Of a DNA stretch of 64,000 nt, positions 3,515 to 59,960 are shown one piece after another. This DNA is from Desulfovibrio sp. JC010 (lineage in GTDB: Bacteria > Desulfobacterota > Desulfovibrionia > Desulfovibrionales > Desulfovibrionaceae). The DNA lies in the NCBI RefSeq assembly GCF_010470675.1, contig NZ_VOIQ01000009.1, positions 1 through 64,000 of the forward strand, read 5' to 3'. The notes under the pieces were generated by a model that had not been told where the DNA came from, did not search any database, and worked only from the letters and a program-made list of their open reading frames with translations. How positions within the stretch are numbered: position 1 is the first letter of the stretch; each line of letters begins with the position of its first letter. A program made the translations under genes and the position numbers.

Positions 3515-4012
3515 ATGATTCCTATAATCCAGATTGAAAACGGAGAAATCCCCAGCCCCCGCGGTTACGCTGTATCCATGGTCATCAAAAGCTTCAAAGG
3601 TCGCCGTGATGTAGAAGTACATCTTTTCCGCCCTGAATGGGACGAAGCCGACGCGGCTGAAATCAAATGGGACGGCCTGTTCGGAGCACCCGCAGCACTC
3701 GATGCCGTTCCCAATGAAGAAAAAGACCGCAAAATCGTGCTGGAATCCTTCACCATGGAAGAACGCGATCAGGTAGTTGATTACCTCAAGGAACATTACT
3801 CCTCAAGGCTGGAATCCATCTTCTCCACCCCCATGGAATTTCCCGTACCCGCAGGTCTGCCGCCCCTTTCCTCCATCACCGAGGGCAAAGACATCGGGCT
3901 GATCAAGTTCGAAAAAGTACCCCACTTCGACCTGCCCTTCGCCCTGCGCGGCCTCTATAACCTCGGCGCGCACCGTCCGCTGGTTGAGACACGTGAGGGG
4001 GATGATAATTAG
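3515..4012 (+). CDS. conserved protein of unknown function
   Basis: A soluble protein of 165 residues starting MIPIIQIENGEIPSPRGYAV, with no signal peptide, membrane segment or motif that I recognise. It is rich in acidic residues and prolines, and the C-terminus ends REGDDN. The ATG at 3515 has GAGGT seven bases upstream. An upstream in-frame TTG at 3464 is less likely because it has no ribosome site. The gene is divergent from uvrB and converges, across the hicAB cassette, on aat. Codon use resembles that of the neighbouring core genes, so it looks resident and not recently acquired. Confidence 0.75.
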   Translation: MIPIIQIENGEIPSPRGYAVSMVIKSFKGRRDVEVHLFRPEWDEADAAEIKWDGLFGAPAALDAVPNEEKDRKIVLESFTMEERDQVVDYLKEHYSSRLESIFSTPMEFPVPAGLPPLSSITEGKDIGLIKFEKVPHFDLPFALRGLYNLGAHRPLVETREGDDN

Positions 4013-4063: not shown

Positions 4064-4101
4064 CTCTGTAATAGCGCATCAATATTTTATCCAAATTTAA
4101 A

Positions 4102-4130
4102 AGCGGAGGATTCATCCCGAATCCTCCGCT
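4102..4130 (+). terminator. terminator, left copy flanking hicAB
   Basis: Perfect 12-bp stem AGCGGAGGATTC / GAATCCTCCGCT with a five-base loop, followed by TTTACTTTTTG. It ends the plus-strand gene at 3515. An almost identical hairpin lies at 4808-4835. Confidence 0.85.
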
Positions 4131-4154
4131 TTACTTTTTGCAAACAAAACCATC

Positions 4155-4188
4155 TTGACATAATACCACAAAGTAATACCATACTCTT
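4155..4188 (+). promoter_or_regulatory. promoter of hicAB, probably giving a leaderless mRNA
   Basis: A consensus -35 TTGACA (4155-4160), then 16 bases and a -10 TACCAT (4177-4182). The expected start of transcription falls at the ATG (4189). No Shine-Dalgarno sequence precedes hicA. The repeated AATACCA units (4162 and 4175) could be operator half-sites for HicB. The -10 box is weak, so this is a sequence-based guess. Confidence 0.55.
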
Positions 4189-4443
4189 ATGAACAAGAAG
4201 CAACGCAAAACACTTGAAGCTGTCTTTAAAAACCCGATCAGTCCGTCGATTACTTGGACAGACATTGAGGCGTTGCTGGTCGCACTTGGTGCAACCAAAT
4301 CTGAAGGAAGAGGATCACGAGTTCGTATTAAACTAAACGGCGTAAGGGCAATCTTCCATAGACCACACCCGGAACCAACTACAGACAAAGGTGCGGTAAA
4401 ATCTGTTCGCCGCTTTCTTGAAGCGGCAGGAGTAAAGCCATGA
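4189..4443 (+). CDS. hicA: HicA-family mRNA interferase toxin
   Basis: A protein of 84 residues belonging to the HicA subgroup that starts MNKKQRKTLEAVF and ends DKGAVKSVRRFLEAAGVKP. HicA toxins have a double-stranded-RNA-binding fold and cut mRNA. The usual active-site GSHH motif is replaced here by GRGSRVRI. The histidines of IFHRPHP downstream may take the catalytic role in this subgroup; that last point is an inference. Toxin comes first and overlaps the antitoxin by four bases (ATGA). The pair sits between two copies of one terminator hairpin. Confidence 0.85.
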   Translation: MNKKQRKTLEAVFKNPISPSITWTDIEALLVALGATKSEGRGSRVRIKLNGVRAIFHRPHPEPTTDKGAVKSVRRFLEAAGVKP

Positions 4444-4778
4444 ACACAATTCAGTACAAAGGCTATCTGGGGAAATTCGACTACGATCCCGAAGCTGACA
4501 TTTTTCACGGCGAGGTTATCAACCTCAAAGATGTAATCACCTTCCAAGGCCGTTCCATAGACGAACTGAAAACAGCTCTGGCTGAATCCGTTGAAGACTA
4601 CCTTGATTTCTGCCGTGAAGAAGACGAAGAACCGGAAAAACCATATTCCGGTAAAATTCATTTACGCTTAAAACCAGAACTCCACAGAGAAGCCGCGTCA
4701 GCCGCAGCTATCTCCGGCAAAAGCCTTAATGCATGGATTTCAGATACATTGACCGAACGAGTAAAAGAAATTCGGTAA
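4440..4778 (+). CDS. hicB: HicB-family antitoxin
   Basis: A 112-residue antitoxin. The N-terminal half is the HicB RNase-H-like fold (YKGYLGKFDYDPEADIFHGEV, then ITFQGRSIDELKTALAESVEDYL). The C-terminus is a ribbon-helix-helix DNA-binding domain (GKIHLRLKPELHREA through SGKSLNAWISDTL). HicB binds and blocks HicA and normally represses the operon. Its start overlaps the hicA stop, indicating translational coupling. Confidence 0.9.
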   Translation: MNTIQYKGYLGKFDYDPEADIFHGEVINLKDVITFQGRSIDELKTALAESVEDYLDFCREEDEEPEKPYSGKIHLRLKPELHREAASAAAISGKSLNAWISDTLTERVKEIR

Positions 4779-4807
4779 GACGCAAAAGATTCCAGAACCA
4801 ATGAAAA

Positions 4808-4835
4808 AGCGGAGGATTCACCTGAATCCTCCGCT
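4808..4835. terminator. bidirectional terminator, right copy flanking hicAB
   Basis: 13-bp stem AGCGGAGGATTCA / TGAATCCTCCGCT with a two-base loop. It has a T-rich tail on the plus strand (TTTATCATTTC) and TTTTTC on the minus strand. It serves hicB on the plus strand and aat on the minus strand and is nearly identical to the hairpin at 4102-4130. Confidence 0.85.
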
Positions 4836-4844
4836 TTATCATTT

Positions 4845-5567
4845 CTAGCTCAAAATTTCCGTTATCAGATCATACTCCCCTTCCATGAATTCCCATCGTC
4901 CGCGCAGGGCAGGGAATTCAAGCGCCTCATCGAGCTTTTCCAGAAAGTGATCCCGGCTGACCTCTTCGGCCCCAAGGGATTTGAGATGGTCTGTGGGCTG
5001 CTGGCAATCAATGAAATGAAATTCGCGGTTCTGCAGCCAGTGTACGAGATAGGAAAATCCGACCTTTGAGGCATCCGGCTCAAGGAAAAACATGGACTCC
5101 CCGGAAAAGACCTTACCCAGTGAAATTCCATAAAGCCCTCCGGCAAGATTGCCGTGGCTGTTCCAGACTTCCACGCTGTGCGCGAAACCGAGCTTGTGCA
5201 GCTTCACGTATGCATCGATCATTTCGGGCAGAATCCACGTGCCGGCCTGACCGGGGCGGAATTTGCGGGCACAATTGGAGATCACGGCCTCGAACGCATG
5301 GTCGAGGGTGACCGTATATTCCCTTTTCCTGACCTTGCGCCGGACCCGGCGGGAAACATGCAGCTTGTCGAAATTAAGTATCAGGCGCGGATCAAGAGAC
5401 CACCACAGAATGGGCGAACGCTCATCATACCACGGGAAAATACCCGAGGCATAAGCTGATAACAGCCGTTCCGGGCTTAAGTCTCCACCGACCGCCAGCA
5501 GACCGTCCGGTTCCGCCTCATCCGGGTGGGGAAAAATGGGGTCTTCAATCAATCTGTAAACAACCAT
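4845..5567 (-). CDS. aat: leucyl/phenylalanyl-tRNA--protein transferase
   Basis: A 240-residue protein, the normal size of Aat. This enzyme moves Leu or Phe from aminoacyl-tRNA to proteins with an N-terminal Arg or Lys, marking them for ClpS/ClpAP. Family motifs visible are FPHPDEAEPDGLLAVGGDLS near the N-terminus, YASGIFPW, ILWWSLDPR, then GTWI, and GGLYGISLGKVFSGESMF with FIDCQQPTDHL. clpA and clpS follow upstream on the same strand, so the recognition and degradation steps of the N-degron pathway are encoded side by side. A terminator lies between aat and clpA, so aat probably has its own promoter in 5568-5670. Confidence 0.96.
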   Translation of the reverse strand: MVVYRLIEDPIFPHPDEAEPDGLLAVGGDLSPERLLSAYASGIFPWYDERSPILWWSLDPRLILNFDKLHVSRRVRRKVRKREYTVTLDHAFEAVISNCARKFRPGQAGTWILPEMIDAYVKLHKLGFAHSVEVWNSHGNLAGGLYGISLGKVFSGESMFFLEPDASKVGFSYLVHWLQNREFHFIDCQQPTDHLKSLGAEEVSRDHFLEKLDEALEFPALRGRWEFMEGEYDLITEILS

Positions 5568-58035: not shown

Positions 58036-58362
58036 TTAAAATAAATCTCTTACCGCATTAAGAATCTCACTAATTTTACTACTCGTTAGCTTCGCGACCG
58101 GATTAAGAATATCCCGGTTTGCGGTTAGAATTTTGGAATAAACAGCAAAACTCTCATCCTTCTTTAAATATCCCTGATCAATATCGCTTTCAAGGATTGA
58201 AATTCTCGGAAGATGTATATGGTTTTGCGAAGTCACTGCGCACAAAATGTAATCATTACGTCCATGCATAGCGAGAACAATCGCCGGACGCTTTTTAGCA
58301 TTAGTCAAATCTGTGTATGGAAAAGGAACCGTAACTATTGAACCTACTGTAAGTGTGCCCAT
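58036..58362 (-). CDS. PemK/MazF-family mRNA interferase toxin
   Basis: A 108-residue PemK/MazF fold protein: VGSIVTVPFPYTDLTNAKKRPAIVLAMHGRNDYILCAVTS, then the C-terminal ILTANRDILNPVAKLTSSKISEILNAVRDLF. The FPYTDLTxxKKRPAIVL core carries the basic residue of the active site and the family's Ser/Thr-rich end is present. It cuts mRNA at short motifs. The gene overlaps the upstream gene by 19 bases and has a strong ribosome site (GGAGGAGG) within it. Confidence 0.85.
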   Translation of the reverse strand: MGTLTVGSIVTVPFPYTDLTNAKKRPAIVLAMHGRNDYILCAVTSQNHIHLPRISILESDIDQGYLKKDESFAVYSKILTANRDILNPVAKLTSSKISEILNAVRDLF

Positions 58363-58946
58363 GCTTCATCCTCCTCCGGTGAGTCCCAAACTTCAGCAAG
58401 AGATGACTCTGAAGATACTAAACAGAAATCAGATAATTCATTAATTTCATTAACTGCTGCCAGATACTTGGTATAAAGTTCATGCGGCTTTTCTTTCAAT
58501 TTCTCCCATTCAGAAGCATACCTTAAAAAGGTTTTAGTCTCGCCAACTTCACAAGCGAGACCTATGATAAAATCAAGCATTTCTGGATTAGAAGGCTCAA
58601 GATCACATGCTACCTTTGCATACGAAAGAGCATCTTCAGAATCTCCGCACACTGCCATGGATGTAGCATAATTAAATAAAAGCAGACTATCTGTCTTATG
58701 CTGCAAAGACATCTTATGATACCTGTGCATAGCTTTTATATCATTTTGAACACTGGCAATACTTCCCATGGCAGAAAGCCCTTTCGCAATATCTATACGC
58801 TTCAAATCCGCAGCTTTATCAATGAGAGAACGCAACAGTCTGGCTCGACTTATTTCATCGATTTCGTTGTTGTTCATCAAGTCATTAAGACTACCGATTA
58901 TTTCATTAAATATCACTTCAGCAGCGGGAATTGGAATACTCATCAT
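58344..58946 (-). CDS. TPR-like protein with antitoxin-like C-terminal tail
   Basis: A 200-residue protein. Residues 20-160 are helical repeats of TPR type (IDIAKGLSAMGSIASVQNDIKAMHRYHKMSL, LLFNYATSMAVCGDSEDALSYAKVACDLEPSNPEML). The last 20 residues, SLAEVWDSPEEDEAWAHLQ, match the short acidic toxin-binding tails of MazE/PemI-type antitoxins (SLAxxWxxPEDDEAW). It overlaps the PemK-like toxin downstream, in the position of its antitoxin. No DNA-binding domain is visible, which is unusual for that role. ATG 58946 or 58943; both follow AAGGA. Confidence 0.65.
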   Translation of the reverse strand: MMSIPIPAAEVIFNEIIGSLNDLMNNNEIDEISRARLLRSLIDKAADLKRIDIAKGLSAMGSIASVQNDIKAMHRYHKMSLQHKTDSLLLFNYATSMAVCGDSEDALSYAKVACDLEPSNPEMLDFIIGLACEVGETKTFLRYASEWEKLKEKPHELYTKYLAAVNEINELSDFCLVSSESSLAEVWDSPEEDEAWAHLQ

Positions 58947-59092
58947 AATTTCCTTATTTTCATCTTACATCAAGATAATTAGCTATTATACCCTATAAAG
59001 CAAGCATATTTTCAAGCTTCAACTTATTAGAAACAGCAATAATGCTCACCGAAATATCCCGCGCCAAATGAAGCAAACTGCAGTTACTCCCC

Positions 59093-59167
59093 CCACAAAA
59101 ACACCCCCTCAAAACATCTATACGGATGATGCTCTGAGGGGGTGTTTATATTAATGTTGGTACGAAA
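59093..59167. repeat. 75-bp direct repeat, left copy flanking higBA (terminator plus tRNA-Leu 3'-end echo)
   Basis: 59093-59152 is a terminator hairpin (AACACCCCCTCA / TGAGGGGGTGTT with inner CATC/GATG) and 59158-59167 is TGGTACGAAA. The same sequence lies at 59812-59886 exactly 719 bases away with about 68 of 75 positions identical. It ends the higBA transcript. Confidence 0.9.
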
Positions 59168-59173
59168 TATTTA

Positions 59174-59467
59174 CTACACTGCCCTATCCTTAGGCTCCAC
59201 CCGCAAAGAAACTCCAAGCGCACCCAGCACTTTCAGGATCGTGCTATAACGAGGCTGAGAACCGGGACTTAAAGCTTTATACAGACTCTCCCTGCCAAGT
59301 CCTGAATCCTTGGCAAGCTGAGTCATGCCTCTGGCCTTGGCAACATTGGACAGGGCAATCAACAGATCGTCAGGATCACCAGTGGCAGCTGCAACGCTCA
59401 GGTATTCGGAAATCATTTCTTCGCTGTCTAAATATTCGGATGTATCAAAAGGTTTTGTCTTAACCAT
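59174..59467 (-). CDS. higA: HigA-type antitoxin (HTH)
   Basis: A 97-residue XRE-family antitoxin. A short N-terminal extension (FDTSEYLDSEEMISEYLSVAAATGDPDDLL) that contacts the toxin precedes the HTH ARGMTQLAKDSGLGRESLYKALSPGSQPRYSTILKVLGALGVSL. It matches the putative addiction-module antidote family. It follows the toxin gene by two bases. The stop is at the edge of the left direct repeat. Confidence 0.88.
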   Translation of the reverse strand: MVKTKPFDTSEYLDSEEMISEYLSVAAATGDPDDLLIALSNVAKARGMTQLAKDSGLGRESLYKALSPGSQPRYSTILKVLGALGVSLRVEPKDRAV

Positions 59468-59469
59468 GA

Positions 59470-59769
59470 TTACTCCTCTTTTATTTCTGCGGCCAATTCA
59501 TGGGCCTTTTTGATGTCTCGCTTTTGGCTGGATTTGTCCCCGCCTGCCAGCAGGAAATACAATCTATCTCCTACCTGAGTATAATAAACACGATAACCGG
59601 GTCCGACAGAAATTCTCATCTCAAAGACCTCTTTACCTACCGACTTACAATCACCGAATAAACCACGTTTAGCCCGGTCAATTCGTAGGAAAATATTGGC
59701 TTTTCCAGTACGGTCTTTGAGCTTGGTAATCCACTTGTCGAAGATTTCTGTGCTATCAAACTGATTCAT
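59470..59769 (-). CDS. higB: HigB/RelE-superfamily toxin
   Basis: A 99-residue protein of the RelE superfamily (addiction-module killer group). Family signs are IFDKWITKLKDRTGKANIFLRIDRAKRGLFGDCKSVGKEVFEMRISVGPGYRVYYTQVGDRLYFLLAGGDKSSQKRDIKKAHELAAEI; the GPGYRVYY and GGDKSSQKRDIKKA parts are diagnostic. It should cut mRNA on the ribosome. Toxin before antitoxin is the usual order for this subgroup. No Shine-Dalgarno sequence precedes ATG. Confidence 0.9.
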   Translation of the reverse strand: MNQFDSTEIFDKWITKLKDRTGKANIFLRIDRAKRGLFGDCKSVGKEVFEMRISVGPGYRVYYTQVGDRLYFLLAGGDKSSQKRDIKKAHELAAEIKEE

Positions 59770-59774
59770 GCCAA

Positions 59775-59803
59775 AATGTATCCATCTGAATACAAAATGT
59801 CAA
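59775..59803 (-). promoter_or_regulatory. promoter of higBA, probably leaderless, with operator palindrome
   Basis: On the minus strand: TTGACA (59798-59803), 17 bases, TACATT (59775-59780). Transcription should start at or beside the higB ATG (59769). TGTAT-N8-ATACA (59777-59794) lies between the boxes and is a candidate HigA operator. Confidence 0.6.
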
Positions 59804-59811
59804 TAATGACT

Positions 59812-59886
59812 CCACAAAAACACCCCCTCAAAACATCTATGCGGATGATGCTCTGAGGGGGTGTTTATATTTGCAATGGTGCGAAA
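59812..59886. repeat. 75-bp direct repeat, right copy (terminator of tRNA-Leu plus tRNA 3' end)
   Basis: 59812-59871 is the same terminator hairpin as at 59093-59152 (59 of 60 identical) and 59877-59886 is TGGTGCGAAA, which is the CCA end of tRNA-Leu. On the minus strand it ends the tRNA transcript. It is the original site; the other copy encloses higBA. Confidence 0.9.
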
Positions 59887-59960
59887 GGAGAGACTCGAAC
59901 TCTCACGGCTAGGCCGCTAGATCCTAAATCTAGTGCGTCTACCAATTCCGCCACTCTCGC
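59877..59960 (-). tRNA. tRNA-Leu (anticodon UAG)
   Basis: A class II tRNA on the minus strand: acceptor GCGAGAG / CTTTCGC with G-U, encoded CCA, anticodon stem CTAGA/TCTAG with loop TTTAGGA and anticodon TAG (plus-strand 59924-59926). It has a long variable arm and T-arm GTTCGAGTC. Its 3' end and the following terminator are duplicated at 59093-59167. Confidence 0.96.

Follow-up and report, generated by a model that had tools for sequence, protein, structure and literature searches.

A hicAB toxin-antitoxin cassette between two copies of a predicted protein-gene terminator beside aat in Desulfovibrio sp. JC010

A small hicAB toxin-antitoxin cassette of Desulfovibrio sp. JC010 was very probably inserted in this lineage at the single terminator of two convergent genes, with duplication of the terminator hairpin, as judged from the comparison with related genomes. 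The locus was studied in a window of 64,000 nucleotides (contig NZ_VOIQ01000009.1, positions 1 to 64,000 of the forward strand), to which all coordinates without a genome or locus label refer. The left neighbour (3515-4012, + strand) encodes a protein of 165 amino acids for which no family match was found in Pfam and NCBIfam; the gene is kept beside uvrB and aat across the genus. The right neighbour is aat (4845-5567, - strand), encoding leucyl/phenylalanyl-tRNA-protein transferase (PF03588). The strands of the two genes confirm the convergent arrangement described in the first-pass annotation, which had also placed hairpin copies about 706 bases apart on either side of hicAB and had proposed that the operon was inserted at one terminator.

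Both hairpins were found; the distance from start to start is 706 bases, AGCGG standing at 4102 and at 4808. The left copy (4099-4133) contains a palindrome at 4100-4132 with a 14-bp stem and the loop ATCCC, and the right copy (4805-4838) a palindrome at 4806-4837 with a 14-bp stem and the loop ACCT. The stem, AGCGGAGGATTC...GAATCCTCCGCT, is common to both. The block of identity between 4099-4133 and 4805-4838 comprises the palindrome and one base on each side, and the loops alone differ. The folding energies were determined as -24.9 kcal/mol for the left and -28.2 kcal/mol for the right hairpin, corresponding to z values of about -8.5 and -8.3 relative to shuffled sequences. In a terminator scan both hairpins were terminator-like on the + strand, and the right one is predicted to serve both hicAB and aat.

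The cassette between the hairpins (4134-4804, + strand, about 0.67 kb) holds hicA and hicB as its sole genes. The hicA toxin gene (4189-4443, + strand, 84 amino acids) matched PF07927 with an E-value of 1.5e-11 and the toxin family PHROG 8887, and the hicB antitoxin gene (4440-4778, + strand, 112 amino acids) matched PF05534 with 5.2e-22 and PHROG 9151. The order is hicA-hicB with a 4-base overlap, and by its domains and operon layout the pair is classified as a HicAB type II toxin-antitoxin system. A phmmer search with HicA (E up to 0.1) found no relative of solved structure. The stretch 4134-4804 contains neither a transposase nor an integrase, has no tRNA, and shows no terminal inverted repeats. 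A promoter-like site, TTGACA-16-TACCAT (4155-4182, + strand), is located about 22 bases from the left hairpin, and its -35 element is conserved in the relatives G003 and G001. The site stops 6 bases short of the hicA ATG, and no Shine-Dalgarno sequence was seen in 4155-4191. The predicted hicAB transcript would start approximately at this ATG and would thus be leaderless; the same may hold for the hicA mRNA of G003 and G001.

The state of the site before the insertion was deduced from related genomes, one per species, so that the comparison is between species. In G007, G009, G010 and G001 the gap between the 3515 gene and aat measures 56-145 bp and contains one hairpin belonging to this stem family and no hicAB, which is the empty site that the first-pass annotation had suggested looking for. 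To the left of the left hairpin the flank (CAATATTTTRTCYAAATTT / CAATATTTTRTCYAAATTTWAAAGCGG) continues the sequence of G001; to the right of the right hairpin the flank (TCATTTCTAGCTCAAA / CTTTATCATTTCTAGCTCAAA) continues that of G009. Each hairpin therefore retains its ancestral outer flank, and the stretch between them is new. In the aat tree this genome was placed inside the clade of G007, G009, G010, G003 and G016 (95/96) with G001 next, the inner order of the clade being unresolved. The genome is nested among relatives with one hairpin, and one gain accounts for the pattern. No relative with both hairpins and without hicAB was encountered. The one-hairpin empty sites, the two flank matches, the nested position in the tree and the restriction of the exact stem to the aat site among 297 genomes of the order make the insertion with terminator duplication very probable, and the earlier proposal is upheld. 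The insertion appears young and clean, the edges of the cassette being placed to within a few bases. Other inserts are present in the same gap: G003 has an SGNH-hydrolase-like gene and G016 a VOC-like one (both named by reading the translations), and neither is accompanied by a duplicated hairpin. The gap of G003 was considered as a case of the same site use and was rejected, the SGNH-like gene sitting to the left of one hairpin without duplication.

It might be argued that the two terminators are independent, hicAB having carried its own, and that they resemble each other by chance or through reuse of a stem within the genus. In favour of this, the 12-base arm at up to 2 mismatches is about 4 times commoner in the genome than its reversed control (449 versus 112), an excess which may reflect the Shine-Dalgarno-like GGAGG. 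The exact arm, however, has four matches in the whole 4.39 Mb genome, all of them in these two hairpins. When 297 genomes of the order were scanned for the full stem pattern with a 3-6 base loop, it was found twice here, once in G001 at the hicAB-free aat site, and nowhere else. The background was obtained by comparing every hairpin within 2.46 Mb of sequence from five genomes of the genus, to which this genome contributed 0.86 Mb (approximately one fifth of its length) and four relatives 1.6 Mb; the dispersed hairpin families GGATTCTTAAACCC... and CCAGAGAACCC... had been removed beforehand. Four near-identical terminator pairs were observed among the 951 pairs at most 6 kb apart, compared with 0.22 expected from 43,589 distant pairs, of which just 10 reached a similarity score of at least 16. 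On the scans of the genome, the order and the background, chance likeness was rejected, including the chance alignment of unrelated terminators that the first-pass annotation had named as a way to overturn its proposal, and independent terminators are considered extremely improbable. A dispersed repeat as the source of the stem was also rejected, the dispersed hairpin families of this genome being others. These REP-like families (types GGATTCTTAAACCCTTTTGCAAAAGGGTTTAAG and CCAGAGAACCCTTTTGCAAAAGGGTTCTCTGGAC) occur in the window at 148-322, 32097, 33295, 48041 and 48179 and at many places in L093-L132, and they are often paired around genes.

The other near-identical pairs of the background sample share one kind of location. 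Three of the four sit at tRNA genes, where a tRNA 3' end and the terminator are duplicated around islets without an integrase, at tRNA-Leu (higBA, 0.7 kb), tRNA-Val (3.2 kb) and tRNA-Ala (4.2 kb). The hicAB pair at aat is the only one of the four without a tRNA, none being present within 150 bases. At tRNA-Val (L127 14537-17818) the 3' half of the tRNA gene and the terminator are duplicated around a 3.2 kb islet with an RHS/YD-shell protein and no integrase, and at tRNA-Ala (L151 4018-8336, G003) around a 4.2 kb islet of VWA, PP2C and protein kinase genes, likewise with no integrase. A fifth case was found outside the 2.46 Mb sample at tRNA-Ser of G007 (L089 1254-2844), with a higBA-like pair and a SecB-like gene; this toxin-antitoxin unit with a chaperone, TAC-like, lies between two copies of the tRNA end and terminator.

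The higBA unit of the window (59074-59886) consists of two 94-base repeats 719 bases apart around two genes, all on the - strand. The far copy, with about 10 nt of the tRNA-Leu 3' end and the terminator, is at 59074-59167, and it is followed by an antitoxin gene of HI1420 type (higA-like, 59174-59467), a RelE/ParE toxin gene of HI1419 type (higB-like, 59470-59769) and the near copy of the terminator and the tRNA-Leu(TAG) 3' end (59793-59886), the tRNA itself being at 59877-59960. The unit is absent from tRNA-Leu(TAG) in G016 and G009. The first-pass annotation had stated that this cassette matches the hicAB unit; the agreement holds for size and layout and fails for the target, since the higBA repeat is composed of an attachment-site-like tRNA 3' end and terminator. 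In G003, G010 and G001 a partial second copy of tRNA-Leu(TAG) was detected about 49 kb off (L065 1500-1700; G003:C1:640237 and 689379; G001:C1:2775699 and 2824682), and in G010 an integrase-like frame, read by eye, adjoins the partial copy. These copies would fit a large element residing in the tRNA gene that carries higBA here. Adjoining the higBA unit, a PemK/MazF-like toxin gene overlaps a 200-amino-acid TPR-like gene (58036-58946), possibly another toxin-antitoxin or defence pair. A tandem of higBA and a relBE-like pair occurs near tRNA-Thr in G003 (L048 1470-2755), and the same terminator-tail and promoter segment (TTTTTCCACCCAGCCGGATATTGAC) precedes each of the two, as in a modular toxin-antitoxin array.

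The closest hicAB copies, with 76-78% DNA identity, belong to G003, G001 and G015 and lie at tRNA-Pro(CGG). The operon of G003 and that of G001 have a partial tRNA-Pro 3' end on one side and a complete one on the other, both accompanied by a terminator; the hicA promoter there begins directly after the terminator, TCTTGACAT and part of the spacer being conserved. The adjoining integrase remnant comprises the final 45 codons of a tyrosine integrase; it was matched by PHROGs (PHROG 1 integrase, 1.8e-6) and missed by Pfam. Long open frames of the same integrase are present in G011 and G008, about 0.8 kb or less from partial tRNA-Pro copies. The hicAB homologues of G003 and G001 are identified as cargo of a decayed tyrosine-integrase element at tRNA-Pro. 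In G001 (C1:2092962-2096299) the tRNA-Pro(CGG) 3' end occurs in three successive copies, two partial and one whole, which matches the expectation for site-specific accretion (PMC5704250); the array has the form of stacked islets with hicAB in one of them. In G015 an IS transposase, recognised by reading, is inserted upstream of hicA. The tRNA-Pro(CGG) site of this genome has one tRNA end, one terminator, no repeat and no hicAB.

Relatives of hicAB are present on plasmids and in islands, and the distribution is patchy. Only 2 viral contigs of IMG/VR encode a relative of this HicB, and a viral carrier bearing the same hairpin was sought in IMG/VR and rejected. Among 63 hicAB loci of other phyla examined for duplicated hairpins, 12 had some flanking direct repeat, mostly belonging to local repeat families. 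The clear parallel is a Bacillota locus (L207 2640-4425), where a 119-base repeat composed of a tRNA 3' end and terminator stands on both sides of hicAB, so that the layout recurs in another phylum. In an Anaerolinea MAG (L199 2758-5107) hicAB is inside an array of approximately 95-base repeats with integron-like cassette spacing.

The mechanism was assigned with less confidence than the insertion. The preferred reading, held at slightly under an even chance, is that hicAB forms a CIME-type islet without an integrase, which landed at a terminator outside any tRNA gene and the ends of which were produced by a tyrosine recombinase that had this terminator as its site. The target is the single bidirectional terminator common to the convergent 3515 gene and aat, a full hairpin of which now stands on either side of this recent, lineage-specific insert. 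In the CIME-type reading hicAB would have been cargo beside the attachment site of a tyrosine-integrase element, the two hairpins would be the attL- and attR-like ends, and the integrase would have acted from elsewhere or would since have been lost. With a full hairpin on each side, the 3515 gene, hicAB and aat would each keep a terminator at the end, and read-through into the toxin operon would be prevented; the insertion is probably transcriptionally neutral because each neighbour retains its terminator and hicAB is closed on both sides. This CIME-type reading is supported by the other three near-identical pairs and the fifth case, at tRNA-Ser, and by hicAB in G003 and G001, placed between copies of the tRNA-Pro 3' end and terminator beside the integrase remnant. 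Against it, no relative of that remnant was found in this genome and the aat site is not a tRNA gene. The duplicated block is the palindrome only with no asymmetric core outside, and between the identical arms the loops, where the overlap region would be expected, are unlike in both sequence and length. Apart from the G001 aat site, no further copy of the hairpin was found in the 297 genomes of the order or in the viral contigs of IMG/VR, and so no integrase-bearing element is known at this terminator.

In the first of two serious rival readings, the cassette arrived on foreign DNA by transformation or transduction and was joined by homologous recombination or microhomology, a route that we regard as rather unlikely. 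It would have come either ready-flanked by the terminator, from the aat site of an unsampled relative, or joined at T-rich terminator edges, those of hicAB's own terminator and of the aat terminator, the gap acting as a minimal mobile element site at which cassettes are swapped between two conserved genes. Such exchange is favoured by the different inserts in the same gap, where G003 has its SGNH-hydrolase-like gene, to the left of one hairpin, and G016 its VOC-like gene, and also by hicA directly following a terminator with the conserved TCTTGACAT in G003 and G001 too. The import does not by itself explain the exact hairpin duplication, however, and shifts the event to another genome; moreover, the hairpin is not duplicated with the inserts of G003 and G016. 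The second rival, a break directed at the hairpin, is judged distinctly unlikely. The terminator would be extruded as a cruciform or single-strand hairpin and cut at its base and tip, and filling in of the ends around a captured hicAB fragment would leave a full palindrome at each end; alternatively, an unknown element would give a 34-base target duplication at hairpins. The extent of the duplicated block, the palindrome and one base per side, agrees with this, and identical arms with differing loops are what processing of the tip could yield. On the other hand, there is no transposase and there are no terminal inverted repeats at the cassette ends, a 34-base target duplication is long for known transposons, and the other duplicated terminators of the genus, which reach into the tRNA, are left unexplained. 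A transposon or MITE with inverted ends was rejected, the best inverted match being equalled by 348 of 2000 shuffles. It is quite improbable that one process of the genus recognises the intrinsic-terminator hairpins of protein and tRNA genes alike, drops promoter-bearing toxin-antitoxin cassettes there and copies the terminator; insertion by such a process would always be transcriptionally neutral.

The locus bears on the question of the route by which toxin-antitoxin pairs without mobility genes enter chromosomes. Together with the tRNA cases of the genus it suggests that terminators are safe landing sites at which neighbouring transcription is undisturbed, and it offers a concrete place for testing excision and re-integration. 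No specific description of terminator-duplicating toxin-antitoxin inserts was found in the open-access literature.

Among the known systems, a CIME is a cis-mobilizable element, a decayed ICE or IME flanked by attL and attR (PMC5704250). The hicAB unit resembles it in form, with cargo lacking integrase and transfer genes between two attachment-site-like repeats (4099-4133 and 4805-4838), in the one-repeat empty site of four relatives, and in the accretion-like stacked partial copies at tRNA-Pro, where the same hicAB family stands beside an integrase remnant. It differs in being only 0.67 kb and one operon, its site is the terminator of protein genes, the repeat is a bare hairpin and the att function is putative. 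Minimal mobile elements of Neisseria are incorporated solely by homologous recombination in their flanks (PMC3898611); the gap between conserved genes holding hicAB, an SGNH-like gene, a VOC-like gene or nothing, with no mobility genes, is similar, whereas these elements are not defined by a duplicated terminator, and species rather than strains were compared here. Chromosomal and mobile hicAB modules are already known (PMC2701414), and the gene order, the 4-base overlap, the patchy spread and the relatives on plasmids and islands are shared with them, the duplicated terminator at the borders being the difference. Toxin-antitoxin cassettes of integrons are likewise small and promoter-bearing with hairpin-forming repeats as borders, but the repeat at hicAB is an almost perfect palindrome whose loop has 4-5 bases, inspection showed no attC-type core sites in it, and there is no integron-style cassette array around hicAB in the window. 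From tRNA-targeted islets the hicAB block differs by the absence of a tRNA 3' end, which the higBA unit at 59 kb has. None of hicAB modules, CIMEs and minimal mobile elements fully accommodates a toxin-antitoxin cassette with exact copies of one protein-gene terminator at its borders. In appearance the hicAB unit is a miniature of an islet type already known, and it is unusual in having landed at the terminator of protein genes instead of at a tRNA gene.
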